From a virus: DNA of 23,641 bases. Shown here one piece after another: positions 381 to 16,100 of this stretch (positions are counted from its first letter, which is position 1; the number at the start of each line of letters is the position of its first letter). Location of the stretch: IMG/VR virus record IMGVR_UViG_3300042691_000538, positions 1 to 23,641 of that record; one strand, given 5' to 3'. The translations under genes and the position numbers were made by a program. Below the pieces are notes generated by a model. It made no database searches. It worked only from the letters and a program-made list of their open reading frames with translations, and was not told the origin of the DNA.

Positions 381-644
381 ATGGCTAAATTTAGCAAAAA
401 AATAATGGGTAAAGAAGTTGGCGATGCCGCGGTCTATGCCACGCCACACACAATGACTGGTAAAGTTGTTAAAGCTTCTGAGAACCCCGGCTCTGGCCCT
501 GACCACAGCGATGCCAATACAGTCAATATGTCTGTTGGAAACATTTCTCGTCGTGCGCAGCCAGCAACTAAAACGTCTGGTATCAAAATGCGTGGCGCAG
601 GTGCAGCTACCAAAGGCTTTATGAGCAGAGGCCCAATGGCATGA
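381..644 (+). CDS. Small basic phage protein with C-terminal RGAGAATKG motif
   Basis: The product has 87 residues, is basic and has no membrane segment. The N-terminus (MAKFSKKIMGKEVGDA) is Lys-rich, the middle is polar, and the C-terminus reads SGIKMRGAGAATKGFMSRGP, a tail I associate with small uncharacterised phage proteins next to neck genes. It starts two bases after the previous stop, and its own stop overlaps the ATG of the adaptor candidate by four bases (ATGA), so translation is probably coupled. The function is unknown; a minor capsid or packaging accessory is a guess from position. Confidence 0.75.
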   Translation: MAKFSKKIMGKEVGDAAVYATPHTMTGKVVKASENPGSGPDHSDANTVNMSVGNISRRAQPATKTSGIKMRGAGAATKGFMSRGPMA

Positions 645-1480
645 ATTACGCCGACCTTGTCACGCAGGTAAGCGATTACTGCGAGAACTCTTTCCCAACT
701 GACAATATGAACGTGTTCATTCGTCAGGCGGAGCAGCGCATCTATAACACCGCGCAGCCCGCTAATTTGCGAAAGAACGTGACAGGCGTATTGACCACTG
801 GCAACAAATATCTTGAATGCCCCACAGACTTCTTATCGGTATATAGCCTTGCCGTATACCCGTACAACACCACAACTGCCACAGGAACAGCTGGGCAGAA
901 AACAATTGTAGTGGCTAGTACTACAGGTATTGCAGCGGGTCAGCAAGTTACAGGCACGGGGATTGGCACTAACGCACAAGTTAGAAGCATTGCAGGTACT
1001 ACGATTACATTAACAGTGGCCAATAGCGGCGCTGTATCTGGCTCTGTAGTGTTTCAGGGTGACTATTTGTATCTGCTAAACAAAGACGTTAACTTCATCC
1101 GTGAAGCCTATCCTTTGTCTGCGTTTGCATCTGAGCCTAAACATTACGCAATCTTTGGCCCACGATCTGACAATGTGAATGAGCTAACGTTTATCGTTGG
1201 CCCAACACCTAGCGCGGCCTATAACGCAGAGCTTCACTACAACTACTATCCTGAGTCTATTGTGACGGCGGGGACTACATGGTTGGGTGATAACTTTGAT
1301 TCTGTTCTGTTATACGGAACTATCTGCGAGGCTTACACCTACATGAAGGGTGAGGCCGATATGGTTGCACTTGCCCAACAGCGTTATGTACAGGCTATTG
1401 CTTTGTATAAAAACTTGGCGGATGGCAAACAACGTGCTGATGCTTATCGTGATGGTCAAATTCGGACGACGGTTTCATGA
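641..1480 (+). CDS. Head-tail adaptor candidate (SU10-like adaptor) with inserted beta domain
   Basis: The product has 279 residues. The N-terminal part is helical (MNYADLVTQVSDYCENSFPT..., then VFIRQAEQRIYN at 26-36), followed by LRKNVTGVLTTGNKYLECP and, after an insertion, YLLNKDVNFIREAYP at 144-158. The C-terminal part has FDSVLLYGTICEAY and a long helix with MVALAQQRYVQAI. This pattern matches the phage adaptor proteins that bind beneath the portal in SU10-like podoviruses, as I recall the family; no database search was run. Residues about 77-139 look like an inserted beta-rich module (TGIAAGQQVTGTGI...GTTITLTVANSG) splitting the fold. The start overlaps the upstream stop by four bases and the end overlaps the next gene the same way. 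Confidence 0.7.
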   Translation: MNYADLVTQVSDYCENSFPTDNMNVFIRQAEQRIYNTAQPANLRKNVTGVLTTGNKYLECPTDFLSVYSLAVYPYNTTTATGTAGQKTIVVASTTGIAAGQQVTGTGIGTNAQVRSIAGTTITLTVANSGAVSGSVVFQGDYLYLLNKDVNFIREAYPLSAFASEPKHYAIFGPRSDNVNELTFIVGPTPSAAYNAELHYNYYPESIVTAGTTWLGDNFDSVLLYGTICEAYTYMKGEADMVALAQQRYVQAIALYKNLADGKQRADAYRDGQIRTTVS

Positions 1481-1893
1481 GCAGCATTCTCCAAACTCAG
1501 ACGACTAGCTTTAAAACAGAGCTGTATACGGGCGTTCATAACTTGTCTACAAACACGTTAAAGATTGCTTTGTACACGGCTAACGCTAATTTAAACGAAG
1601 CCACCACTGTTTACACAACAGACGGTGAAGTTAGCGGTACAGGTTACAGCCCCGGTGGAGTAACTTTGACTGGCGTAACAATTAACTCGTCTGGTTATAC
1701 AGCTTATGTAGACTTTGCCGACGTGGTGTTTAACGCATCCGTAACAGCTCGTTGTGCTTTGATTTACAACGTTACTCAGGGTAACAAATCCATTGCTGTG
1801 TTGGACTTTGGGTCTGACAAAACATCCACCAATTTCACCATCACAATGCCTGCTAATACAGCCACGGCAGCATTAATTCGTTCTTCTAACTAA
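1477..1893 (+). CDS. Phage virion structural protein, beta-rich
   Basis: The product has 138 residues and is Thr/Ser/Ala-rich. The N-terminus (SSILQTQTTSFKTELYTGVH) leads into LKIALYTANANL, then GEVSGTGYSPGGVTLTGV, CALIYNVTQG and VLDFGSDK. This string of motifs recurs in small structural proteins of short-tailed phages, but I know of no assigned role. It has no signal peptide or membrane segment. The ATG overlaps the adaptor stop by four bases. The order of its motifs resembles that of the following protein, so the two may be distant paralogues forming related parts of the tail or neck. Confidence 0.7.
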   Translation: MSSILQTQTTSFKTELYTGVHNLSTNTLKIALYTANANLNEATTVYTTDGEVSGTGYSPGGVTLTGVTINSSGYTAYVDFADVVFNASVTARCALIYNVTQGNKSIAVLDFGSDKTSTNFTITMPANTATAALIRSSN

Positions 1894-1902
1894 GGAGTCA
1901 CT

Positions 1903-2481
1903 ATGACTATTGAAAAACTTAAAGCCACTGACGTAGTCTCTAGTGGTCTGACTTGTAACACTAAAGCTGGTGAAACTGCACAAGCTACAGGCGTATACCA
2001 CGTTGAGTGCCATGATAAAGATGGCAACTTGAAATGGACTGCCGACTCCAAAAACTTGGTTGTCAACGTTGGCCTCCAGTACATGGCTGGTACTGCGCTA
2101 ACTTCTGTTACTCAGATTACCACTTGGTATCTTGGCCTGTATGGTGCTGGTGCTTCTAATACACCTGCGGCTGGCGACACTATGTCTTCACACGCTGGTT
2201 GGACAGAGGTTACTACTTACAGCAACGCCAACCGTGTTACTGCTACTTTTGCAACAGCGACTACCGCCAACCCTTCTGTGGTAACTAACTCTGCTTCTCC
2301 AGCAGTGTTTAACATCAACGGCACAACAACCGTTGGCGGCGCTTTTCTTACAAGCAACAACACTAAGGGCGGCACGACTGGCACTTTGTTCTCTGCGGCA
2401 GATTTTGGCTCACCCGGTGATCGCTCTGTGGTCAATGGTGATACCTTGTCTGTGACATACACATTCAGCTTGGCTGCATAA
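1903..2481 (+). CDS. Phage virion structural protein, beta-rich, possible paralogue of the preceding gene
   Basis: The product has 192 residues. A Lys-containing N-terminus (MTIEKLKATDVVSSGLTCNT) and a segment HVECHDKDGNLKWTADSKNL precede a Thr/Ala/Gly-rich beta region with TTWYLGLYGAGASN, WTEVTTYSNANRV, TTVGGAFLTSN and AADFGSPGDRSVVNGDTLSV. AAGGAG at 1892-1897 fits the ATG at 1903. The sequence reads as a virion protein without enzyme motifs. Its LY-x-A, EV...Y, TV-GA-L and DFGS blocks occur in the same order as in the upstream gene. It may be a fibre or a head or tail decoration protein; which one cannot be seen. Confidence 0.7.
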   Translation: MTIEKLKATDVVSSGLTCNTKAGETAQATGVYHVECHDKDGNLKWTADSKNLVVNVGLQYMAGTALTSVTQITTWYLGLYGAGASNTPAAGDTMSSHAGWTEVTTYSNANRVTATFATATTANPSVVTNSASPAVFNINGTTTVGGAFLTSNNTKGGTTGTLFSAADFGSPGDRSVVNGDTLSVTYTFSLAA

Positions 2482-2482
2482 C

Positions 2483-3226
2483 ATGTCAGCATGGGGCAGC
2501 GGCACTTGGGGTGAAGGTGGCTGGGGCTTTACGGCTTTTACCAGCACTGTAAACGACTCCGCCACGGGAAGTGATGCCGCTGTTTCGGTTGCCAGTGTAA
2601 ACGCCGCTGTTAATGAGACAGGTACAGCAGTAGACGAAAATAGTGCACTGTCGGTAATTAGCGCTAGTGTCAGCGAAACAGGCACTGGGTCAGATGCTTT
2701 AGTAGCAGGGCAGTTTATTGACGTTGCAGTTGCTGAATCAAGTACTGGTAGCGATGCAATATTAGCGGCTGTTGGAAATTCTGCAACAGTAGATGAGTTG
2801 TCTACAGGTTCAGATGCTGTAACTAGCACGCCTACGTATTCAGCGGCAGTGAGCGAAAGTTCAACTGGCACAGACAGTGTAACGTCAAGTTTTATATTCT
2901 TTGGAGACGTACAAGAGTCAGCAACGGGTTCCGATACAACAAGCTCGACACTTACGCTGAGTGCGTCAATTGATGAGACTGCTACAGGAACAGAAGCACT
3001 TACAACAAACGTAAGTCTTAACCCGACGGTAGCAGAAAGCGCGGTAAGCGCGGATACTTTGGCGGCAGCGGCAGCGTTTATTTCGTCTATTACAGAATTA
3101 GCAACTGGAACAGATACTGTAACTGCGCGGCCTTTCTGGGAAGTAATTGATGACACGCAGACTGCAAACTGGCAAAATATCGGTAACACGCAAACGGCAG
3201 GTTGGACTGCTATTGCAACGACTTAG
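2483..3226 (+). CDS. Tandem 20-residue-repeat structural protein with WG-type N-terminus
   Basis: The product has 247 residues. Residues 4-15 are Trp/Gly repeats (WGSGTWGEGGWG). Residues 23-222 are ten consecutive repeats of exactly 20 residues built on V-x-E-S-x-T-G-S-D-A followed by about ten variable, beta-prone residues. The C-terminus has W-x-x-I-x-x-TQT-x-x-W spacing repeated (WEVIDDTQTANWQNI...). The protein is acidic and very poor in Lys and Arg. It begins one base after the preceding stop. The layout suggests an elongated fibre or stalk with end segments for attachment. No similar named family is recognised, and the role as a fibre shaft is inference from the strict period and the neighbouring tail genes. 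Confidence 0.7.
   Translation: MSAWGSGTWGEGGWGFTAFTSTVNDSATGSDAAVSVASVNAAVNETGTAVDENSALSVISASVSETGTGSDALVAGQFIDVAVAESSTGSDAILAAVGNSATVDELSTGSDAVTSTPTYSAAVSESSTGTDSVTSSFIFFGDVQESATGSDTTSSTLTLSASIDETATGTEALTTNVSLNPTVAESAVSADTLAAAAAFISSITELATGTDTVTARPFWEVIDDTQTANWQNIGNTQTAGWTAIATT
2549..3148 (+). repeat. Ten in-frame 60-bp (20-residue) degenerate tandem repeats
   Basis: This region codes for ten units of exactly 20 residues, with no insertion or deletion between them. Each opens with (V/I)xE(S/T)xTG(S/T)(D/E); units 2 (TGTAVD) and 9 (SAVSAD) are the most divergent. The nucleotide repeats have drifted while the protein period is kept, so this is an old, selected repeat rather than a recent slippage product. 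Confidence 0.85.
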
Positions 3227-3236
3227 GAGCAATTAA

Positions 3237-4097
3237 ATGGCAACAGCGTACTCAACCAACTTAGAACTTGCGCTGCCGGTTCAGGGCGAGCTATCTGGTA
3301 CATGGGGTGATACCGTCAACAACGGTATTACGCAGTATCTTGATACGTCAATTGCGGGTAGTCAGATTATCAGCGGTAGCCAAACTGCGGTTACGTTAAC
3401 GAACACAAACGGCGACGCTGCTGCTACCAACATTGCACAAGTTGGCAGTGGTGCTACGGGTACGGCGCAGTATCAGATTATTCGCTGTACAGGCAATCCT
3501 GCGGGGCTGCTGACAATTACAGTCAGCGAAACCGTTACTGCGGGTTACAGCAAGACTTACATCATCATTAACGCTACATCCACAAGCCAGTCGGTAAAGA
3601 TTGTAGGCAGCGGCCCCACTACAGGTATTACAGTTGCTTCTGGCGACAAAGCGTTTGTAGCGTGGAGTGGCTCTGACTTTGTGCGAGTGGGCGCATCGGC
3701 TGGCGGTTCAACTACCCAAGTTCAGTACAATAATGCAGGCAATTTGGCAGGCTCTGCCAATCTGACCTTTGACGGCACAACGCTAACGGCCAATGACATC
3801 ATTGACTCTTCGCTGACAGCCAGCAAACCCGTATTTACAAACGGCAGTAAAAACTTGGTGTCTACTGGAACGCTGGGTGTTGACCAAGGCGGTACAGGTT
3901 TAACAACTACAACAGCGTACAGTGTGGTGTTTACTGGTACTACCGCTACAGGTAACTTTCAAGCTTCTGCTGGCCCCGGTACAACAGGGCATGTTCTAAC
4001 AAGTAACGGCGCGGGTGCTTTACCAACTTTCCAAGCGGCAGCGTCTTCCGGTGCTACTAAAGGTCAAGCAATCGTACTTTCAATGATTTTTGGATAA
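3237..4097 (+). CDS. Phage tail fibre / tail structural protein
   Basis: The product has 286 residues. The N-terminus (YSTNLELALPVQGELSGTWG) and WGDTVNNGITQYLD are a conserved phage fibre or tail opening. A beta-rich part to about residue 150 ends in GDKAFVAWSGSDFVRVG. Then come two motifs common in fibre proteins: STTQVQYNNAGNLAGSANLT (158-177) and LGVDQGGTGLTTTTAY (213-228). The C-terminus is hydrophobic (QAIVLSMIFG). The ribosome site AGGAG is at 3225-3229. The mix of an N-terminal docking-like segment and repeating beta motifs supports a virion fibre protein; the exact position in the particle is unknown. It shares fibre-type composition with genes on both sides. Confidence 0.75.
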   Translation: MATAYSTNLELALPVQGELSGTWGDTVNNGITQYLDTSIAGSQIISGSQTAVTLTNTNGDAAATNIAQVGSGATGTAQYQIIRCTGNPAGLLTITVSETVTAGYSKTYIIINATSTSQSVKIVGSGPTTGITVASGDKAFVAWSGSDFVRVGASAGGSTTQVQYNNAGNLAGSANLTFDGTTLTANDIIDSSLTASKPVFTNGSKNLVSTGTLGVDQGGTGLTTTTAYSVVFTGTTATGNFQASAGPGTTGHVLTSNGAGALPTFQAAASSGATKGQAIVLSMIFG

Positions 4098-4109: not shown

Positions 4110-4484
4110 ATGGCTACCCCTAATTTAGCAAACGTAACAACAATCACACCTGCAAATTCGCAGGTTTATCTGACAACAACTAACGCAACAAGCCTTGCAA
4201 GTAATGCGGCTTCAAGCGGTACGGTGTTGAAGATTGAAAGTTTGGTTGTGTCAAACTCAGATACAACAACGGCATATACCGTTACGATAAATACTTACAG
4301 CGCCGCCGCTTTGGGTGGTACGGCATATCCGATTGTTTCTACTTTGTCGGTTCCTGCCAACTCTTCAGTCATTGTGATTGACAAGACCAACACCATTTAC
4401 CTCAATGAGAATCAATCATTGGGTGCAACGGCTGGTACAGCAAATGAAATTTATGTAAATACTTCTTATGAGGTAATGTCGTAA
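4110..4484 (+). CDS. Small virion structural protein, beta-sandwich-like
   Basis: The product has 124 residues, is Thr/Ala/Ser-rich and has no charged clusters. The pattern of alternating hydrophobic strands (VLKIESLVVSNSDTTTAYTV, then SVPANSSVIVIDKTNTIYL, then NEIYVNTSYEVMS) resembles small single-domain beta-sandwich proteins of phage heads or fibres. AAGGAG at 4099-4104 supports the start. The stop TAA shares its last base with the ATG of the glycine-rich protein, so the two are probably translated together. A fibre accessory or decoration role fits; nothing more specific can be seen. Confidence 0.65.
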   Translation: MATPNLANVTTITPANSQVYLTTTNATSLASNAASSGTVLKIESLVVSNSDTTTAYTVTINTYSAAALGGTAYPIVSTLSVPANSSVIVIDKTNTIYLNENQSLGATAGTANEIYVNTSYEVMS

Positions 4485-6361
4485 TGAGCCAAAGAAACCC
4501 CGGCGGCCTGATCAGCGGAACCGCCATCAATGTAACTACATTTGGGGCAAGTGGCATCTTCACTTTGTCTCAGGTGCAACAGTTCATTTCCGCTGGCAGG
4601 TGGCCTCAAAACTTCTTTACCGTCATTGAAACTATCACAGGTTCAGGCACATGGGTGTGTCCCACAGGTGTTACAACTGTTGACTACCTTGTAGTCGCAG
4701 GTGGCGGTGGTGGTGGATTTGGTGTTTGTACTAGCTACGTAGGTGGTGGTGGCGGTGCTGGTGGTTATCGACAAGGCACAGGATTCCCTGTTTCCGCTGG
4801 TGTTGCGTACACGGTTACAGTAGGCGCTGGTGGTTCTGGTGGAACAACGGGGCCTAATGTTTCTGCTGTTAATGGAAGCAACTCAGTTTTTGGAAATGCT
4901 CCTAATGCAGTTACATCTGCTGGTGGTGGCAGAGGCGCATCATCTGGCGCACCAAGTCCATTATTAGGTTGCGCTGGCGCTGGTGGTTCTGGCGGTGGTG
5001 GGGCGTCAAATTACAATAATTCCCCTGCGGCGTCTCTCCCCGGCGGTGCAGGAAATACACCAACTACATCTCCATCGCAAGGCAACAATGGTGGTAATGG
5101 TGGTGGTTTCTCAATTCCTTGTTGTGGCATATTAGGAGCGCAAGGGGGAGGCGGTGGTGGTGCAAGCGCAATTGGTGGCAGTGCTCCCGGTACTAATGCA
5201 AACGGGCGACCCGGTGGCGCAGGCTCCGCCTCTACAATTAGTGGCGCATCAGTAACTTACGCAGGGGGTGGAGGCGGTGGCGGATGGGGTTGCAATATTG
5301 GCGACTCTGGTGGCTCTGGCGGTGCTGGTGGTGGCGGTGCTGGTGGTGGAAAAAACCAAGTAGGCACGGCAGGCACAGCTAGTTTGGGCGCTGGGGGTGG
5401 CGGTGGTGGTGGAACTTCTACACCTTTTGGTGCCGTAGTTGGCGGTGCTGGCGGTTCAGGTATTGTCATCATTAAATACTTACAACCCACAACCAATACC
5501 GTTTTTGACTTCAACGCATCTACGATTTGGAAATGCCCCACAGGTATTAACTCTATTGACTACCTAGTAGTTGGCGGTGGTGGCGGTGGTGGTGGCACAA
5601 CGGCTGGCCCATCAGGTGCAGTAACTGGTGGTGGCGGAGGCGGTGCTGGGGGCTTCCGTATTGGCTCTGGCTTTGCTGTGACGCCCGGCTCTAACTACAT
5701 CGTTACTATTGGCGCTGGCGGTAGAGGGGGTAATTTTAACGCCTCAAGTCCCACTACTATTGGTGCAAATGGTGTTGCTTCTAGTTTTGTAATTTCCCCC
5801 GGCGCTTCGCCAACTATTATTGAATCTGCTGGTGGTGGTCGTGGTCGTGGTGACGGGAATCCTGTTGCTACGCCTGTAGGAAATGGCGGTTCTGGTGGTG
5901 GAGGTGGTTCAGCAACAGTTACTGCTGGAAATGGAAATATTCCTTCTGTATCTCCAGCGCAAGGCAATAATGGCGGAACTGGCTTATCCCCTCAGCAACT
6001 TGCTGGAGGTGGAGGTGGCGCTGGTGCTGTTGGCGGTAGTGGAGTTGCTCCAATTACAATTGGGTCAGGAGGTGCTGGAACTGCTTCATCAATCACTGGC
6101 TCATCTGTAACTTATGCTGGTGGCGGTGGTGGCGGTGGTCTAGGGCCAAGAACGCCATCAACAGGGGGCGCTGGTGGAGGCGGGGCTGGTGGATTTGCAA
6201 ATGCGTCGCCCAGTCCACTTGGTTCACTATCTGTTGCTGGAACCGCTTTTACGGGCGGCGGCGGCGGCGGCGGCGGATTTTCTGCGTCTCCAATCCCCGG
6301 CACTTACGGCGCTGGTGCGGCAGGTGGTTCTGGTATTGTTATTTTTAAAGCTGTGGGGTAA
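4484..6361 (+). CDS. Glycine-rich tail adhesin with two tandem modules
   Basis: The product has 625 residues. An N-terminal segment (NPGGLISGTAINV..., to about residue 45) resembles phage fibre attachment regions. Two modules follow, each opening with a beta strand and a W-x-C-P-T-G signature (W57/C59 and W349/C351, 292 residues apart), then DYLVV(A/G)GGGGG, GGGAGG(Y/F)R, a strand Y-x-VT(V/I)GAGG, many GGGGG tracts, and SGIVI at the module end. Glycine-rich domains of this kind form polyglycine-II helix bundles in T4-type gp38 adhesins (known for phage S16). Here it is most likely the receptor-contacting tip, with variable loops between glycine tracts. The small gene and oxygenases behind it may assist or modify it. 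Confidence 0.75.
   Translation: MSQRNPGGLISGTAINVTTFGASGIFTLSQVQQFISAGRWPQNFFTVIETITGSGTWVCPTGVTTVDYLVVAGGGGGGFGVCTSYVGGGGGAGGYRQGTGFPVSAGVAYTVTVGAGGSGGTTGPNVSAVNGSNSVFGNAPNAVTSAGGGRGASSGAPSPLLGCAGAGGSGGGGASNYNNSPAASLPGGAGNTPTTSPSQGNNGGNGGGFSIPCCGILGAQGGGGGGASAIGGSAPGTNANGRPGGAGSASTISGASVTYAGGGGGGGWGCNIGDSGGSGGAGGGGAGGGKNQVGTAGTASLGAGGGGGGGTSTPFGAVVGGAGGSGIVIIKYLQPTTNTVFDFNASTIWKCPTGINSIDYLVVGGGGGGGGTTAGPSGAVTGGGGGGAGGFRIGSGFAVTPGSNYIVTIGAGGRGGNFNASSPTTIGANGVASSFVISPGASPTIIESAGGGRGRGDGNPVATPVGNGGSGGGGGSATVTAGNGNIPSVSPAQGNNGGTGLSPQQLAGGGGGAGAVGGSGVAPITIGSGGAGTASSITGSSVTYAGGGGGGGLGPRTPSTGGAGGGGAGGFANASPSPLGSLSVAGTAFTGGGGGGGGFSASPIPGTYGAGAAGGSGIVIFKAVG
6254..6274 (+). repeat. Pure (GGC)7 trinucleotide tract in the adhesin gene
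   Basis: Seven uninterrupted GGC codons encode glycine near the end of the second module. Other glycine runs in the gene mix GGT, GGC, GGA and GGG, so this pure tract stands out. A pure triplet run can change length by slippage without breaking the frame. Confidence 0.8.
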
Positions 6362-6363
6362 TC

Positions 6364-6621
6364 ATGGAACGTGAGTTTTATCAGTTATATGGTATTGACA
6401 CTGCGATGCACTTGTTGCGTCCCGGTGCAAAATGGGAAATCTCCAACACAATGTTCACTCGTTGGGATGATCCTCGACCTTGCCCAACCATTGAAGAAGT
6501 GCATGAAGTGATGGAAAAGATCAAGGCGTTTGAGAGCACCATTGACACAGTGTTTACTGAAGCTCAATTAAAAGAACTTCGTGGTCAACATGACATGATT
6601 AGCAGGGCTGTGAACGCATGA
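6364..6621 (+). CDS. Small fibre-associated protein (XkdW-like pattern)
   Basis: The product has 85 residues. The order LRPGAKWEIS..MFTRWDD, then PCPTIEEVHEVMEKI, then a C-terminal helix with EAQLKEL, resembles small proteins coded directly behind tail fibres (the XkdW-like layout of a short beta element, P-x-PT-x-E-E and a helix). The resemblance is weak and no function is proven for that family; a fibre assembly partner is one idea. It starts two bases after the adhesin stop and its stop overlaps the next ATG by four bases, which ties it to the fibre and oxygenase group. Confidence 0.65.
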   Translation: MEREFYQLYGIDTAMHLLRPGAKWEISNTMFTRWDDPRPCPTIEEVHEVMEKIKAFESTIDTVFTEAQLKELRGQHDMISRAVNA

Positions 6622-7217
6622 ACATGTTTAACCTATTCCCCACGCCCGTGGCTTTTTCCAAGTTTGAAAGAGAACTGACGGAAGAAGAGCTTGCGTTCTT
6701 TAAGAACCAAGAGCAAAAGCCTAATCAGGGGAATACAACAAGCGCTGACAGGAAGATACTTGAACACGCTTTGATGGCTGATGTTTGTGCTTCAATTCAA
6801 AAAGCGATTGATACATACTTCCAAGAGGTTTATCGCCCTAAGTTTGATGTCAAGTTACGGATCACACAGTCATGGATGAACTACTCAGAGCCGGGGCAAT
6901 TCCACCACAAACACGCTCATCCAAACTCATTCTTGTCAGGATGCTTTTACCCACAGGCAAACAAAGAACTTGACAAGCTGTACTTCTTCAATGAGCCGTA
7001 TCACCGCATTAGGATTCATTCAGAGGATTTTAATGTCTACAATTCTGATTCTTGGTGGTTGCCTGTTGGTACTGGTGATATTGTGATCTTCCCATCATCT
7101 TTAACTCACATGGTTGAAAAAGTCGAAGCAAAAGAAACACGCATCAGCCTCTCGTTTAATACGTTTCCTGTTGGCTATGTTGGCAACGACGACTCTTTGA
7201 CTGGGTTGCACCTGTAA
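6618..7217 (+). CDS. 2OG-Fe(II) oxygenase (TIGR02466-like), first of three
   Basis: The product has 199 residues, near the usual length for the small phage 2-oxoglutarate/Fe(II) oxygenases that open with LFPTPV, as here (residues 6-11). Candidate iron ligands are in HHKHAHPNS (H96-S104), probably H99 and H101, and the distal H164 in SSLTHMVE. R175 in TRISLSFN is the likely 2-oxoglutarate anchor. SFLSGCFYP after the first ligands matches the family's SGVYY strand. Such enzymes hydroxylate proteins or small molecules using O2 and 2OG; the substrate is unknown. The ATG at 6618 overlaps the upstream stop; a second ATG at 6624 is possible. Two further oxygenases follow. Confidence 0.85.
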   Translation: MNMFNLFPTPVAFSKFERELTEEELAFFKNQEQKPNQGNTTSADRKILEHALMADVCASIQKAIDTYFQEVYRPKFDVKLRITQSWMNYSEPGQFHHKHAHPNSFLSGCFYPQANKELDKLYFFNEPYHRIRIHSEDFNVYNSDSWWLPVGTGDIVIFPSSLTHMVEKVEAKETRISLSFNTFPVGYVGNDDSLTGLHL

Positions 7218-7777
7218 TGCAAAAGAATCTACAAGACTACGTTAAGGTTTACAACGGCTTTTTGGATGATAAGCTGTGTGACTCTGCTGTTGAGAATCTT
7301 AAAAGCATTCACTTTCAACAGCATCAGTTTTATGATGCAAAAAACAACTCATATCTTAGCTACGATAAAGAGCTGTCAATTTCGCATGGAAACATTCCTG
7401 AGAAAACTGCAATCCAAGAACGGTTTTGGTACGCCATTCGTGACTATTTGAACGAGTTTAAATTTAAATGGTACAACGGTTGGAATGGGTATTCGGAAAT
7501 TCGCTTCAACAGGTACGACACCAATACGCAGATGGAGTTGCATTGCGACCACATCCACAGTATGTTTGATGGTCAGCGCAAGGGTATACCAATCCTAAGC
7601 GTTCTTGGAGCGTTAGATGATGGCTACAAGGGTGGAGAGTTTGTGATGTGGGAAGATACTGTGATTGAGATGCCAAAAGGCTCTGTTATGGTGTTCCCAT
7701 CTAATTTTATGTACCCCCACAAAGTAAATGAAATCACTAAAGGCGTAAGGCATAGTGTGGTTTCGTGGGTTTTTTAA
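7217..7777 (+). CDS. 2OG-Fe(II) oxygenase, prolyl-4-hydroxylase-like, second of three
   Basis: The product has 186 residues with a complete double-stranded beta-helix signature: H109-C-D111 (iron), a strand ILSVLGALDDGYKGGEF, then MPKGSVMVFPSNFMYPHKV with H168 (iron), and GVRHSVVSWVF with R178 (2OG carboxylate). The order and spacing match the P4H/PKHD type, which hydroxylates peptidyl proline or lysine in known members. The phage substrate is unknown. It is not closely similar to the preceding oxygenase (HxD against HxH), so the pair is not a recent duplication. ATG overlaps the upstream TAA by one base. Confidence 0.85.
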   Translation: MQKNLQDYVKVYNGFLDDKLCDSAVENLKSIHFQQHQFYDAKNNSYLSYDKELSISHGNIPEKTAIQERFWYAIRDYLNEFKFKWYNGWNGYSEIRFNRYDTNTQMELHCDHIHSMFDGQRKGIPILSVLGALDDGYKGGEFVMWEDTVIEMPKGSVMVFPSNFMYPHKVNEITKGVRHSVVSWVF

Positions 7778-7790: not shown

Positions 7791-8156
7791 ATGGCACATT
7801 TTGCTGAACTCGACTCAAACAACACGGTTTTGCGTATTGTTGTTGTTAAAAATGCAGACACCGCAGACGCTAAAGGCGTTGAAAAAGAATACATTGGTGC
7901 GGCATACTGCGAAAGGCTCTTTGGGGGTCGTTGGGTGCAGACCTCGTACAACGGTTCTATTCGTGGTCGTTACGCTGGCGCTGGCATGATTTACAACGAA
8001 GAACACAATGTTTTTACAGGTGTCAAACCTTACCCATCATGGGTTTTTGACAGCACCACAAAAGACTGGGCGGCTCCTACTGCAAAGCCTAATGATGGCA
8101 AGCAGTACGACTGGAGCGAGTCAACTTTGTCTTGGGTTGAGAAAGTTGCTGAGTAA
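7791..8156 (+). CDS. Conserved small phage virion-type protein
   Basis: The product has 121 residues from the ATG at 7791, chosen over an upstream GTG because of the ribosome site and the typical MAHFAELD opening. It has NTVLRIVVV, a Cys-containing segment AAYCERLFGGRWVQTSYNGS, GRYAGAGMIYNEEHNVFTGV, PYPSWVFDSTTKDW and a C-terminal YDWSESTLSWV. Proteins with this layout are common near tail fibres and oxygenases in aquatic phages and are usually called structural; I know of no proven role. It lies between the second and third oxygenases, with one-base overlap to the next gene. It could be a fibre part or an oxygenase substrate; both are guesses. Confidence 0.75.
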   Translation: MAHFAELDSNNTVLRIVVVKNADTADAKGVEKEYIGAAYCERLFGGRWVQTSYNGSIRGRYAGAGMIYNEEHNVFTGVKPYPSWVFDSTTKDWAAPTAKPNDGKQYDWSESTLSWVEKVAE

Positions 8157-8776
8157 TGTCTTCCAGCTTTGCAACAAGCTACTATTTTTCTTCGGCGGTC
8201 TACACTGCCGAGGAACCTCAGTTTTTGGATGAAGCCAAAACTGTTGTTGCGGACTACCTAAAGAACTCTGTAAAAAGCCCTGACGGTTTGCTCATTCAAA
8301 CAGGAAGTATGTTTGATGGTCGCTTAGAAGGTTTGATTAAACACATAGCCCAGTCTGGTTGGAATATTTTAGACAGCCAAGGCTACGATATGAGAGACAA
8401 GAGCACAAATCTCATGGAGTTTTGGGCGCAAGAGCATCAAAAGCATTCAGGTATGGATGAGCACATTCACGGTGCAGGCGCTCAGTTGGTTGGGTTTTAC
8501 TTCCTTGATTGTCCTGACGAAGAGGCGAGGATTGTTTTCTCAGACCCAAACCAAGCCAAGAAGCAGATTAACCTGCCACAGAAAGACATTAGTCAGGTAA
8601 CGCTTGGAACCACGATGGTAAACTTTCAGCCAAAGCCGGGTCTTTTAATTATGACCAACGCTTGGGTTCCGCATCTGTTCACCCGCAACAGATCTGACAA
8701 GCCGTTTACGTTCATTCACTTTACGATTGGCGTTGAGAAGGCTTTGCCGCCCCCGCCCCCTGCCGAGGTGATATGA
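8156..8776 (+). CDS. 2OG-Fe(II) oxygenase-like protein, third of three, lacking the usual Arg
   Basis: The product has 206 residues. MEFWAQEHQKHSGMDEHIHG supplies H103-x-H105, followed by the strand LVGFYFLDCP and RIVFSDPN, then PGLLIMTNAWVPHLFTRN with H173. This is the arrangement of the TIGR02466-like oxygenases. Aligned to the first oxygenase, the 2OG-binding Arg (R175 there) falls on F184 here (DKPFTFIHF). R176, R178 or K182 might substitute, or the protein may bind another acid or have lost activity. The N-terminal half is helical. It ends in a Pro-rich tail (PPPPPAEVI). The stop overlaps the next ATG by four bases. Confidence 0.75.
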   Translation: MSSSFATSYYFSSAVYTAEEPQFLDEAKTVVADYLKNSVKSPDGLLIQTGSMFDGRLEGLIKHIAQSGWNILDSQGYDMRDKSTNLMEFWAQEHQKHSGMDEHIHGAGAQLVGFYFLDCPDEEARIVFSDPNQAKKQINLPQKDISQVTLGTTMVNFQPKPGLLIMTNAWVPHLFTRNRSDKPFTFIHFTIGVEKALPPPPPAEVI

Positions 8777-10897: not shown

Positions 10898-12781
10898 ATG
10901 CCGCTTAAAAAACTAACCCTGAAGCCGGGTGTAAACAAAGAAAACACCCGCTATACCAACGAGAACGGTTGGTACGTTTCCGACAAGATGCGGTTCCGTC
11001 AGGGTACGCCCGAAAAAATTGGCGGCTGGGTACGTATTTCTGCGTACACGTTTCTGGGTGTTTGCCGTTCTTTGTGGAATTGGATTACTTTAGGTGGTTT
11101 AAACCTTGTTGGTGTAGGCACTAACTTAAAGTTCTACATTGAACGAGGCGGTGCTTATTACGACATCACGCCTATCCGGGCCAGCAGCACAATTAACAAT
11201 AATCCGTTTGTAGCTACAAATGGCTCGGCCATTATCACTGTTACAGACACAGCGCACGGTGGCGTAACGGGCGACTTTGTAACGTTTAGTGGGGCTGTAG
11301 GTCTTGGTGGAAACATCACGGCAACGGTCTTGAATGCCGAGTATCAAATCTCAGTAATAAACGCTAATAGTTATACATTTACAGCGTCAGCTACGGCAAA
11401 TGCCACAGATGTTTCTGGTTCTCCTGGTGGTGGGGCTTCTGTTGTAGCGGCGTATCAAGTCAATGTAGGCCCAGAATATGCTATTCCTTTGGTTGGATGG
11501 GGTGCTGGCTCTTGGGGGTCTGGTACTTGGGGTGTTGGTAGTACATCAACTTTCTCTATGCGTATTTGGAACCAGCAAAACTTTGGCGAAGATTTAATCT
11601 TTGGCCCTCGCGGTGGGGCGCTGTATTACTGGGATGCAACAAACGGCGTAACTACTCGCGGCGTTTTAGTTTCTAGCTTGGTGGGGGCCAGTGATGTTCC
11701 ATTGATGCAAGACTTCTTGATTATCTCCGATGCTAGTCGGTTTGTATTTGCGTTTGGAACTAACGACTACGGCAGTTCAACAAAGAACCCAATGTTAATC
11801 CGCTGGTCAGATCAAGAGTCTGTAGTAGATTGGGCAGTAGCAGCAACTAACCAAGCAGGTAGTACCCAACTGTCGCACGGTTCTGAAATTATTACAGCTG
11901 TCCAGACCCGCCAAGAGATCATAGTATTTACTGACTCGGCACTTTATTCTTTGCAATATCAAGGGCCACCAGTCGTTTGGAGCACCCAATTATTAGGCGA
12001 TAACATTTCTATTATTGGCCCCAATGCGGCTGTTGCGGCATCTGGTGTTGTGTACTGGATGGGCGTAGAAAAGTTTTATAAATACGATGGTCGTGTCCAG
12101 ACTTTGCGTTGTGATCTTAAGCAGTACATTTTCCAAGACATTAATTTATTGCAAGCCGAGCAGATTTGTTCTGGAACTAACGAAGGCTATAACGAAGTTT
12201 GGTGGTTCTATTGCTCTGCCGGAAGCAATGTAATTGACTTGTACGTTACTTACAACTACTTAGAAGACGTATGGGCCTATGGGACTATGGGCCGTACAGC
12301 TTGGCTTGATTCTGGTCTTCGCGCCCACCCAATAGCGGCCACATATAGCTATAACATCGTTGAGCATGAGAGCGGCAATGATGACAACGTAAGCGGAACA
12401 CCTGTAGCTATTAACGCAATTATTGGCTCTGCCGAGTTTGACATTGATGACGGCGACCATTTTGGCTTTGTCTGGAGGATGCTGCCCGACATTACATTCC
12501 GAGGATCAGACAATGCGTCACCTAATGTGACTATGACCTTAATCCCCATGCAGAACTCTGGCTCTGGGTATAACGATCCCATCTCTTTGGGTGGCAATTC
12601 AAGCGCTACGATTACACGCACGGCTACTGCTGTTATTGAAGAGTTTACGGGTCAGGTGTACGTCAGGGTGCGTGGCCGTCAGATGATCTTGCAGGTTGAG
12701 TCTAACCAGCTTGGGTGTGCTTGGCAGTTAGGCAGTCCTCGTATTGACATCAAACAAGACGGCAGAAGGGGTAACTCATGA
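10898..12781 (+). CDS. Tail nozzle-like protein (P22 gp10 / SU10 nozzle type)
   Basis: The product has 627 residues. The N-terminus (LKKLTLKPGVNKENTRYTNE) and VSDKMRFRQGTPEKIGGW are a recurrent opening of this family. Residues about 93-190 form a beta insertion (TVTDTAHGGVTGDFVTFSGA...GGNITATVLNAEYQI). A WG run follows (WGAGSWGSGTWG, 201-212), then propeller-like repeats (LYYWDATNG, MQDFLIISDASRFVFAFG, VFTDSALYSLQYQG, GVVYWMGVEKFYKYDG) and a C-terminus VRVRGRQMILQVES...GSPRIDIKQDGRRG. In podoviruses such proteins sit below the adaptor and form the tail tip channel. The assignment rests on motif memory, not on a search. It follows the lysis block and overlaps the next gene by four bases. Confidence 0.75.
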   Translation: MPLKKLTLKPGVNKENTRYTNENGWYVSDKMRFRQGTPEKIGGWVRISAYTFLGVCRSLWNWITLGGLNLVGVGTNLKFYIERGGAYYDITPIRASSTINNNPFVATNGSAIITVTDTAHGGVTGDFVTFSGAVGLGGNITATVLNAEYQISVINANSYTFTASATANATDVSGSPGGGASVVAAYQVNVGPEYAIPLVGWGAGSWGSGTWGVGSTSTFSMRIWNQQNFGEDLIFGPRGGALYYWDATNGVTTRGVLVSSLVGASDVPLMQDFLIISDASRFVFAFGTNDYGSSTKNPMLIRWSDQESVVDWAVAATNQAGSTQLSHGSEIITAVQTRQEIIVFTDSALYSLQYQGPPVVWSTQLLGDNISIIGPNAAVAASGVVYWMGVEKFYKYDGRVQTLRCDLKQYIFQDINLLQAEQICSGTNEGYNEVWWFYCSAGSNVIDLYVTYNYLEDVWAYGTMGRTAWLDSGLRAHPIAATYSYNIVEHESGNDDNVSGTPVAINAIIGSAEFDIDDGDHFGFVWRMLPDITFRGSDNASPNVTMTLIPMQNSGSGYNDPISLGGNSSATITRTATAVIEEFTGQVYVRVRGRQMILQVESNQLGCAWQLGSPRIDIKQDGRRGNS

Positions 12782-13119
12782 TTGTTATCTCTGATTTTGA
12801 AATCAACCAAGTTGCTTCGCCTAACTTACCACTGGCTCCAATAGAGTATGAGCGGCAATATGCTGACCAACTTAACAACGTTTTGCGTCTGTACTTTAAC
12901 AGGGTCGATGCAATTCTTGACCAACTAAAAACAGACGAGATTATCCCTGCATTGACTAACTACACGGTGTCTACACTGCCTAGCGCAGTTACTTCTGGTT
13001 TAGGTGCAAGATCTTTTGTAACAGATGCACTAGCTCCAACATTTGGGGCAACAGTGGTGGGTGGCGGGGCAGTGGCTGTACCTATATATTCTGACGGAAC
13101 AAATTGGAAGGTCGGATAA
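12778..13119 (+). CDS. Small fibre-tip or nozzle-associated protein
   Basis: The product has 113 residues in two parts. The N-terminal part (NLPLAPIEYERQYADQLNNV, LRLYFNRVDAILDQL) is helical with a trimer-like heptad feel. The C-terminal part contains VSTLPSA, GARSFVTDALAPTFGATVVG and a final PIYSDGTNWKVG, an ending found at the tips of many phage fibre and particle proteins. It is coded directly after the nozzle-like gene with a four-base overlap, so attachment to the nozzle is a fair inference. Its stop shares one base with the next start. Confidence 0.7.
   Translation: MIVISDFEINQVASPNLPLAPIEYERQYADQLNNVLRLYFNRVDAILDQLKTDEIIPALTNYTVSTLPSAVTSGLGARSFVTDALAPTFGATVVGGGAVAVPIYSDGTNWKVG
13106..13111 (+). 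promoter_or_regulatory. Ribosome binding site deciding the start at 13119
   Basis: GGAAGG lies seven bases ahead of ATG 13119. An in-frame TTG at 13104 would put this site inside the coding region, so the ATG is preferred; it also makes the protein begin exactly at the first repeat domain (MAVTDADI). Confidence 0.55.
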
Positions 13120-16100
13120 TGGCAGTAACAGACGCAGACATTCTTGGTTGGCTAAACGCTAATCCCGATGCGGACGACACGCTAATTGCTACCACTATGC
13201 AGGCGGCGGGGGTAACTCCGGAGCGGATGTCGCAAGTAACTAACACGGACTTAGGCAGTATTCAGTCTCGGTACGACGCCGCTTTGGGCATTGCGTCGCT
13301 CCCTGCCGCCGCCCCCGTTACACAAGAAGTTGATTATTCTGCGCAACAGTTTCAGCCAGATGTATATTCTCAATCAACTTATGACAGCCCCAACACTTCT
13401 GTAAACAATACGCAAGTTGCGGATGTATACACATCGGATACATACACACCGGATACATACACACCAGATACGTACACACCGCCGACTGGAATTGCTACCC
13501 TTACAAACAACACGCAAGTTGCGGATACAACTCAAGCTCAAACCCAAACTCAAGCTACTAAAGTAACCGATGCCGACATCCTTGGTTGGTTTAATGCTAA
13601 CCCCGGCGCAGACGACGCCACTATTGCTAGGGTAATGCAGGAAGCTTCTGTGTCGCCAGAACAACTGGCAAGGGCTACTAACACTAACTTAGCTGATGTT
13701 CAGACTAGGTATGACGCGGCTATTGCTAATGACGATACAACGCAAACACAAACACAAACACAGCCAGCAGCGGTTGATCTGTCTAAAGCAGTTGACCTAA
13801 ACAACGGCACGTTCTTAACTAATACTGGCGCGATTGTTAACTCTGAAGGTAGCGTAATTAAAGATACTGGCTCTGCTGCTACGACTACGTTAACCCAACA
13901 AATTCTTTCTCAAAACTTAACAGACAAATGGACGGGTGAAGGTAAGGGCACTGCGCAAGCAAACGCCGCTGATATGGCAAGCATTTTGGCCAGTATTGAT
14001 ATTACCGACATTAAAGATTTTGGTGTTGTTCCTGTTTACACACCAGTCCAAGAAATTGGCAAAACGTATAACGGGCAGTATGTTAGAACTGTTACCGATG
14101 AAGATACTGGTAAAACTACTCAAGTTATTAGTGTACCTTCAGGGCAATATGACTCAGAAGGCAATGAATATTATAAATCAGTAGAAGTTCCAGCAGGGGC
14201 AAAGCTAACAACCTTGTATGGTCAAGACAACGGCAATGGTGAATTGGAAGCAATTGACCCATCAAAACTTAAAACAGTAGACGGCAAACTTGTAGCCGAT
14301 ACAGGGCAAACAACCTACGGCAACAAAAAGACTGGGGAAGCTGTTCCTAGTACTTATGGTGAGCGACAAACAGGAAATGCTTTTGGCGGTACGTTTGATG
14401 GCAGTGGGAACACTGGCTATCGAGTTCAATTCACTCCTGACGGCACGCCAATCTTTTATACAACGTACGCAACTTCTAATGATCTTGCTATCCTTATGCA
14501 AGACCTTGGCCCGATTGGTCAAATTGGTTTGGCGTTGGCTACGGGTGGTCTGTCTATACCCCAACAAATTGCGGCTAATTTAGCTGTAAATGTTTTAAGT
14601 GGTAAAGATATTGGGGATGCAATTAAGGGCGCTGCAATCAGTTTTGCTGGCGCTCAAATCCCCGGCATGGATTTTATGGGGGAGGGAGCTTCATTTATTA
14701 AAGACCTTGGATTGCCAGCGGGTGTTACAGACAGTTTAACTAAAGGCTTTCAGAACGCCGCAGTTTCTGCTGGCACTGCGTTGCTTAGTGGCCAAGATGT
14801 TGGCGAAGCTATGACTAGAGGTTTTGTTACCGGTGGTGTTAACGGTGCTGTTAATTCGCTTTTAGGTAATATTGAAGGGTTTGGCGACCTGACTGACACT
14901 CAGAAAAAGTTGGTTACTAACGCTGTAACAGGCGTAGTTTCCGGCAAACCTTTAGACCAGATTGTTATCAATAGCGCTATTACTGCGGCTAACTCAGCCA
15001 TTGCCGACGCTAAAAGTACAAGTACAAACACAGAAGATACGCTAACTAAAGCTGGGTTAGTAGACGGCAATGCTGCAACAGATGCCGACACTATTACCTC
15101 ACTCCTTGCCAATAAGGATGTTGTTTCGTCTATTGGTAGCGATGCAGTTACAACCCCGGACACATTAAACCTCGGCGGTGCGGATGCGCTTGCAAAAACT
15201 CTTACAGACGCTAGTACGCTTATTGATACTGAGTTTGGTGACCTAAAAGGCGCGCAAGATAAAAACGCCGCAAACGACCAACTGCGGGATACGATTAGAA
15301 CCAGCAGTAGCTTTAATGATGCGTATGCGCTAGCACGTAAAGAACTTGGCGCGAATAAAACATTTGATTGGTTTAACCCCAAGACAGGCAAAGTAGAAAG
15401 CTTTAGCACCGCTACAAAAGAAGAACGCCCAGATTTAAACGTTACCGCCGGTGACAAAGCAATTGCTGCTTTAAACGCATCTAATTTATCTACAGTAACT
15501 GACGCATCCAGTACAGTTGCAGCACAGGGTGATACGGCTGCTAGAACACTTGCTGCTGCGCCAGATCAAAACTCGGCTGAAACTAAACGTCTAACAGCAT
15601 TAAATAATTCTTTAGTATTAGGTAACGCTCCTAACCAATCAACGGCAGAAACCGCAAGACTTGCTGCGCAGAACAAAACTGCCAAGCTGTCGGCTGAAGA
15701 ATCTGACAGTGCAATTACGTCCGTGTTTAAAAACGTAACGGGTACATTATCCGCAGCCGCAGGTGAACAAGCATCCGCACTTGAGGGCGCTCTTAAAGCT
15801 AGTGGAGCTATTGGCAAAAACAGCCTTCTTGCGGGTATGGCAAACGGTTTGACTTCTTACGGAGCAAATAATGTTAGTACCAAAGCTCAAGAGCAAGAAC
15901 AAGGGTTTGTAACTGAGATTGCTAAAGCTGGTAACACTGGAAATTTCTGGTCTGACGCTGGCGCTAAATTAAAAGTCCTACCTTCAGCCATTATTAACAA
16001 CCCAATTGGTTTTGGTTACGCTGTAGTTAAAGAAGGTATCCAAGAAGTTATTCCAATTTTGACTGGCGCTACTGCGGCTAAGTGGGGCGGTAAATTTATA

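Follow-up and report, generated by a model that had tools for sequence, protein, structure and literature searches.

What kind of protein is encoded by a viral gene whose product carries ten consecutive 20-residue units between two short terminal modules? The gene lies in a window (the whole stretch of DNA analysed here) of 23 641 nucleotides, positions 1–23 641 of the IMG/VR virus record IMGVR_UViG_3300042691_000538; its carrier is a virus of freshwater bacteria. We refer to the product as REP, and the features of the window are collected in Table 1. An earlier note on this DNA, made from the letters alone, had described the repeat and suggested that a regular beta-solenoid or a metal-binding fibre shaft would fit.

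Table 1. Positions of REP, its parts and other features of the window (A and GG are subfamilies of REP relatives).
Feature	Position	Strand	Remarks
SU10-type head–tail adaptor	641–1480	+	PF24175, E = 8.9e-20
138-aa conserved neighbour, phrog_644	1477–1893	+	upstream of REP in 108/117 (A) and 41/45 (GG)
192-aa gene, phrog_8123, directly upstream of REP	1903–2481	+	upstream in 116/117 (A) and 45/45 (GG)
259-aa open frame antisense to the REP repeats	2410–3189	-	
REP, 247-aa repeat protein	2483–3226	+	ATG one base past the upstream stop
N-terminal WG module of REP, residues 1–22 (MSAWGSGTWGEGGWGF...)	2483–2548	+	W4, G5, W9, G10, W14 and G15 invariant in 31 aligned relatives
Ten 20-residue units of REP, residues 23–222	2549–3148	+	no indel; E3 98%, D9 95% (1531 distinct units)
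C-terminal DDTQTANWQNI-GNTQTAGWTAI of REP, 11-residue repeats, two copies, residues 223–247	3149–3223	+	
286-aa gene directly downstream of REP	3237–4097	+	downstream in 99/99 (A) and 37/37 (GG) loci long enough
625-aa downstream protein	4484–6361		two Gly_rich_2 stretches (PF21722)
2OG-Fe(II) oxygenase	6618–7217		PF13759
2OG-Fe(II) oxygenase	7217–7777		PF13640
2OG-Fe(II) oxygenase	8156–8776		PF13759
Stabilisation/nozzle-like virion protein	10898–12781	+	phrog_3287; WG triplet at residues 201–212, about 11498–11533
1627-aa protein	13104–17987		strongly repetitive DTKLDTKADTAT tract at 17101–17476; DNA arrays of 24–120 bases

The ten units follow one another without a single insertion or deletion, as the earlier note had read them. 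The self-identity of REP is 0.33 at a lag of 20 and 0.375 at a lag of 40; the best value at any lag from 3 to 59 in any of 2000 shuffles is 0.23. The mean identity among the ten units is 32% for amino acids and 44% for nucleotides and Tandem Repeats Finder reported no array at this site, so the units have diverged at the DNA level. Purifying selection acts on the protein (dN/dS of 0.21–0.27 in five pairs of relatives), and the positions that change least are the core of the units, with pN of 0.04–0.07 versus pS of 0.27–0.61 in pairs of relatives. The observation that the nucleotide units have drifted apart is borne out. All ten units have an acid at both position 3 and position 9, the acidic pair that had been pointed out, and the pI of REP is 4.05. 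The opening proposed for every unit, (V/I)xE(S/T)xTG(S/T)(D/E), is exact in five of them (3, 4, 6, 7 and 8), but the other five depart from it at one to three positions. Copies of REP with 100% identity are found on two further IMG/VR contigs (L002 and L003). The antisense frame over the repeats is probably a by-product of composition.

Relatives of REP were drawn from seven scans of viral contigs in IMG/VR, the first six of which gave at least 294 ORFs that were read, at least 182 of them distinct. Subfamily A, the window's own, comprises 117 distinct complete proteins, and subfamily GG, whose members start with MAEGGWG, comprises 45. The 1531 distinct units have the consensus start (V/I)-x-E-(T/S)-A-T-G-(T/S)-D-x-(V/I)-x-(A/S), in which T6 (87%) and G7 (82%) follow the two acids in conservation; Ala, Thr and Ser make up 48% of the unit residues, and Lys, Arg, His and Cys together 1.1%. 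Among the first 80 relatives listed, the unit-to-unit distance is exactly 20 in 937 of 1041 cases, and 14 distances of 10 are taken as spurious scoring hits. Distances other than 20 in the WG-headed set are limited to 38 (59 times, marking an 18-residue internal WG module), 21 (three times) and 19 (once). The search for the unit in phages that the earlier note had asked for returned a conserved period with near-invariant spacing. Within subfamily A, a unit that has lost one residue (distance 19) was seen in L167 alone. The proteins of a second group (L066–L081) are ∼400 to >1400 residues long and have as many as 34 units; contig ends cut several of them. These long relatives and L084 combine many 20-residue units with an N-terminal domain for which Limnohabitans phage DC31 has a match, XLZ15478 (56.6% over residues 10–279 of the query L076); a scan of pieces of DC31 gave no significant match to the 20-residue unit itself.

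The note had recognised no described family with this unit, and the library searches agree: REP has no significant match in Pfam, NCBIfam or PHROGs, and curated fibre repeat profiles were not matched. A few members of the 94-row alignment described below gave scattered Pfam matches to unrelated families (best E of 0.00055, in three of the 94). PDB sequence searches returned chance matches only, and no characterised fibre matched REP in sequence. A tblastn search with REP against 50 697 phage records found no match, but some could be masked by the low-complexity filter of BLAST. Two scans of bacterial and archaeal genomes yielded no relatives among 20 and 134 candidate stretches, and no description of such a repeat tail protein was found in the open-licence library of literature that was searched. 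REP is a real, conserved repeat protein that is undescribed within the libraries and literature searched, and its family is common among the virus contigs searched yet missing from profile libraries.

The neighbourhood of the gene is fixed in both subfamilies (Table 1). The 286-aa product shares its N-terminal domain with a tail spike from Planktothrix phage Pag-Yong1 that bears S74 (E = 4e-8) and with HTVC027P gp69, which is annotated as a ‘putative tail protein’ (E = 2e-10). The stabilisation/nozzle-like protein is 39% identical to its DSL-LC04 counterpart and has a WG triplet near residue 200 in all four phages examined, the same motif as that at the N-terminus of REP; these WG modules are proposed, as a conjecture, to mark a docking site. 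In SU10, according to PMC9509320, the fibre genes are numbered gp12, gp13 and gp16, between the adaptor gp11 and the nozzle gp17. The REP gene thus sits in a tail module beside fibre or spike genes, and the fibre reading of the earlier note holds as far as context is concerned; this neighbourhood would also suit a head fibre or a part of the tail other than a fibre. The virion module also contains the three clustered 2OG-Fe(II) oxygenase genes, and HTVC027P and DSL-LC04 likewise have one such gene near their tail genes; it is conceivable that these enzymes modify virion proteins.

The slot that REP occupies is filled by other repeats in two named phages. WJZ48131 of DSL-LC04 (a hypothetical protein) is in the same slot and resembles REP in its starting WG runs, its tandem beta-like repeats and its 11-residue DDSQS..W end, whereas it and its IMG/VR relatives have a period of 22 and a different unit. 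In the DSL-LC04-type ORFs listed, 22 is the commonest TG-to-TG spacing (216 cases). None of the 66 distinct ORFs listed with this protein carries two or more REP-type 20-residue units; a WG run is present in 33 and a Q/W-like end in 52. The phrog_644 gene precedes 38 of the 59 that have room for it, and 18 of 52 are followed by a gene of the 286-aa type; among the 66 ORFs are a few neighbouring fibre genes that are not slot proteins. In the Pelagibacter phage HTVC027P the slot, which is followed by the STSANLKLTVQATGENSGTWG tail gene, holds gp68 (a hypothetical protein), which has WG-type runs both at its start and internally but, unlike REP, has irregular LGSVT-type repeats and no QTANWQNI end. 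In both phages a phrog_644-type gene precedes the slot, and the gene that follows it has an STNLxL...GExSGTWG N-terminus. In a single gene slot, then, the connecting ends stay similar and the shaft is swapped (20-residue, 22-residue or irregular). The WG run and the C-terminal repeats had been seen as end caps. Both elements are present and the idea fits, but both are mobile modules, because the WG run (residues 4–15 of REP, ahead of the units) recurs internally in relatives and in the stabilisation/nozzle-like protein, and the number of C-terminal 11-residue repeats varies from one to five by motif count among subfamily A relatives.

A model of full-length REP built with 31 alignment rows was poor (pLDDT 52, pTM 0.47). 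Gaps were present in the first register-pooled alignment (A2), and dropping the 44 of its 146 rows that had them left 102 gap-free rows, of which 94 make up alignment A3 and eight were left out. The six-unit model obtained with these 94 rows is all beta, with a pLDDT of 72 and a pTM of 0.63. Foldseek gave no match at an E of 0.001 or better for either model, and the full-length matches were meaningless. A second-look structural alignment matched the six-unit model with solenoids, among them 4ygu_C, a putative adhesin (Z of 11.5, r.m.s.d. of 2.3 over 115 aligned residues), 3p4g_D, a calcium-dependent antifreeze protein (11.4, 2.5 over 112), and the RTX block V structure 9p0d (9.3, 2.6 over 97); a Z in this range can mean a mere common repeat arrangement, and families missing from the list are not thereby excluded. 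Hydrophobicity alternates along positions 9–23 (mean of 2.05 versus 0.25), as expected for beta strands. Mean-field couplings are highest at equal positions of adjacent units (mean z of 0.97, next offset 0.32), a pattern that shared ancestry of the units gives as well. Adjacent units are more alike than in within-protein shuffles overall (0.455 versus 0.447, s.d. 0.004, 59 representatives), with no excess within subfamily A (z of 0.2). A solenoid coil adds 4.8 Å, so that on this model a ten-unit solenoid would be ∼5 nm long, which is short for a shaft. The proposed regular beta-solenoid is a candidate fold: the best model is solenoid-like, but AF2 is biased towards solenoids and Foldseek supplied no match at its threshold.

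PMC11795689 reports that AF2 predicts confident, unrealistic solenoids for perfect repeats, that stacked uncompensated charges are a warning sign, that some predicted solenoids are called disordered by other methods and that diverged natural repeats are less affected. The repeat region of REP could be an intrinsically disordered, low-complexity linker or decoration rich in Ala, Thr, Ser and Gly, its period a by-product of old duplications; the low confidence of the full-length model and the composition of the units, with its excess of small residues and its scarcity of basic ones, would suit this. Almost no one-residue indels are seen among diverged arrays, however, the core positions are the most constrained under the purifying selection described above, hydrophobicity alternates, and confidence rises with the deeper, gap-free alignment. 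The bias was demonstrated on perfect repeats, whereas the REP units have diverged to 32% identity. We regard disorder as unlikely. The stacked acids nevertheless stay a warning for the solenoid as modelled, since without bases they would be odd unless metal-bound or outward-facing. A special case of a beta-rich fibre shaft would be a parallel beta-solenoid stabilised by calcium, in which the T-G-(S/T)-D turn serves as the metal loop; the Marinomonas ice-binding domain and the RTX beta-roll would be its analogues. The structural scores of 3p4g_D and 9p0d and the two near-invariant acids per unit, with almost no bases, favour this reading, and the turn may resemble the Marinomonas loop. REP has no sequence match to 3p4g or RTX, however, and those scores may reflect mere repeat arrangement, given that the adhesin scores as high. 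The Pfam profile for the RTX/hemolysin-type repeat (nonapeptide GGxGxDxUx) was absent for REP and for the first A3 member, and was not among the 25 of 42 families listed. On present modelling a calcium solenoid seems possible, but rather unlikely.

The other readings concern the place of REP and not its fold. A head fibre or capsid decoration would suit the adaptor upstream and the small neighbours without assigned function, but the gene after REP is of tail type in the relatives and the WG triplet is common to REP and the nozzle-like protein, so we consider a place on the head improbable. A secreted curli-like amyloid subunit, as reported for the type VIII secretion genes of HTVC023P-type pelagiphages, is suggested by CsgA fibril chains among the weak structural matches and by the CsgA/B, CsgF and CsgG genes of related pelagiphages described in PMC9599517. 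In that paper these genes are accompanied by kinase and secretion genes, and none was noticed in passing in the window; the REP gene is in a virion module, and there is no curlin-repeat match for REP (Pfam, E of 1) or among the 25 of 42 families listed for A3. We give this reading hardly any credence.

Counting how unit number varies between phages, as had also been suggested, revealed a step. The unit patterns in subfamily A are 10 (50 proteins), 5+WG+9 (44), 14 (8), 1+WG+9 (5), 5+WG+13 (3), 9+WG+9 (3), 4+WG+9 (2), 6 (1) and 10+WG+9 (1). The two 4+9 proteins were counted as 14, a degenerate first unit being visible by eye in L132 and in the N-terminus of L296. The corrected totals are 10 (55), 14 (54), 18 (6), 6 (1) and 19 (1), so that 116 of the 117 proteins have 4n+2 units (6, 10, 14 or 18; 114 of 117 uncorrected). 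At a clustering threshold of 70% identity there are 37 representatives, with 10 (18), 14 (13), 18 (3), 6 (1), 13 (1) and 19 (1) units. Subfamily GG breaks the step, with totals of 14 (22), 15 (9), 10 (6), 12 (3) and 11 (2); for three more proteins the parse gave 13, 9 and 1, apparently through degenerate first units or a parsing failure. The rule of four is not general.

In a tree built from the final nine units of 99 sequences, several +4 changes fall inside other backgrounds. With support values in brackets, these are L051, next to L111 (1.0), L286/L291, inside the 5+9 group (1.0), L171 (0.96), and L134/L130 against L275/L274 (0.995); the placement of L168 and L102 is less certain. The protein with six units fits a loss of units 5–8. 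One block of four units (240 bp) forms units 8–11 in L134/L130 and units 2–5 in L275 with ∼100% nucleotide identity, and is present in L286/L291 at 93%. L274 has acquired a single unit that copies its own unit 12 at 100% identity, so steps of one unit can occur. A higher-order repeat was rejected as the cause of the steps in subfamily A, where a unit resembles its fourth neighbour less than after shuffling (z of −3.6, 61 representatives); subfamily GG shows the opposite (z of +5.0, 32 representatives). The simplest account is that members of subfamily A trade four-unit cassettes; some of the steps may stem from recombination between arrays already present. Four units could conceivably make up a structural period. 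Rather unlikely, in our estimation, is a length-quantised shaft in which four units make one structural period, the ends are in phase at 4n+2 and cassette trading alters the length of the fibre without breaking the rod, perhaps with a Ca ladder on the invariant Glu and Asp.

The fixed slot, together with the two phages that have other repeats and similar ends in it, leads us to read REP as a tail-fibre or spike component with an exchangeable beta-rich shaft. REP probably belongs to the virion of a short-tailed phage, most plausibly as a component of the tail fibre or spike that has a WG anchor and a stacked, beta-rich shaft exchangeable in type and length. The WG module would anchor REP on the tail, perhaps through the nozzle/stabilisation-like protein, which has this triplet as well. 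Stacked on one another, the 20-residue units would form a short rigid shaft, each contributing one beta-rich coil or set of strands, and the C-terminal 11-residue Gln/Trp repeats may cap this shaft or present it to the next partner, for example the spike-like product downstream. The type of shaft would be exchangeable, other phages using 22-residue or other repeats in the slot, and within the REP family its length would change mainly through insertion, deletion and relocation of four-unit (240 bp) cassettes. The most interesting point is the near-strict four-unit step in one subfamily, with a cassette found at two places. This natural length series (6, 10, 14 and 18 units) with near-identical ends makes both the effect of shaft length on adsorption and the cause of the four-unit steps testable.

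Set against known systems, REP is most likely of a known kind, the shaft of a phage fibre or spike, and what is most likely new is the stepping by four units. The REP model resembles the Marinomonas ice-binding solenoid (3p4g) and the RTX beta-rolls in its predicted overall coil arrangement and acidic turn, and REP differs from them in sequence, in its 20-residue unit and in its phage virion context. The likeness of REP to the SU10 fibres, which are trimers, is one of gene position and not one seen in sequence, in that the genes for the long and short tail fibres of that phage, like that for REP, are found between the adaptor and the nozzle.
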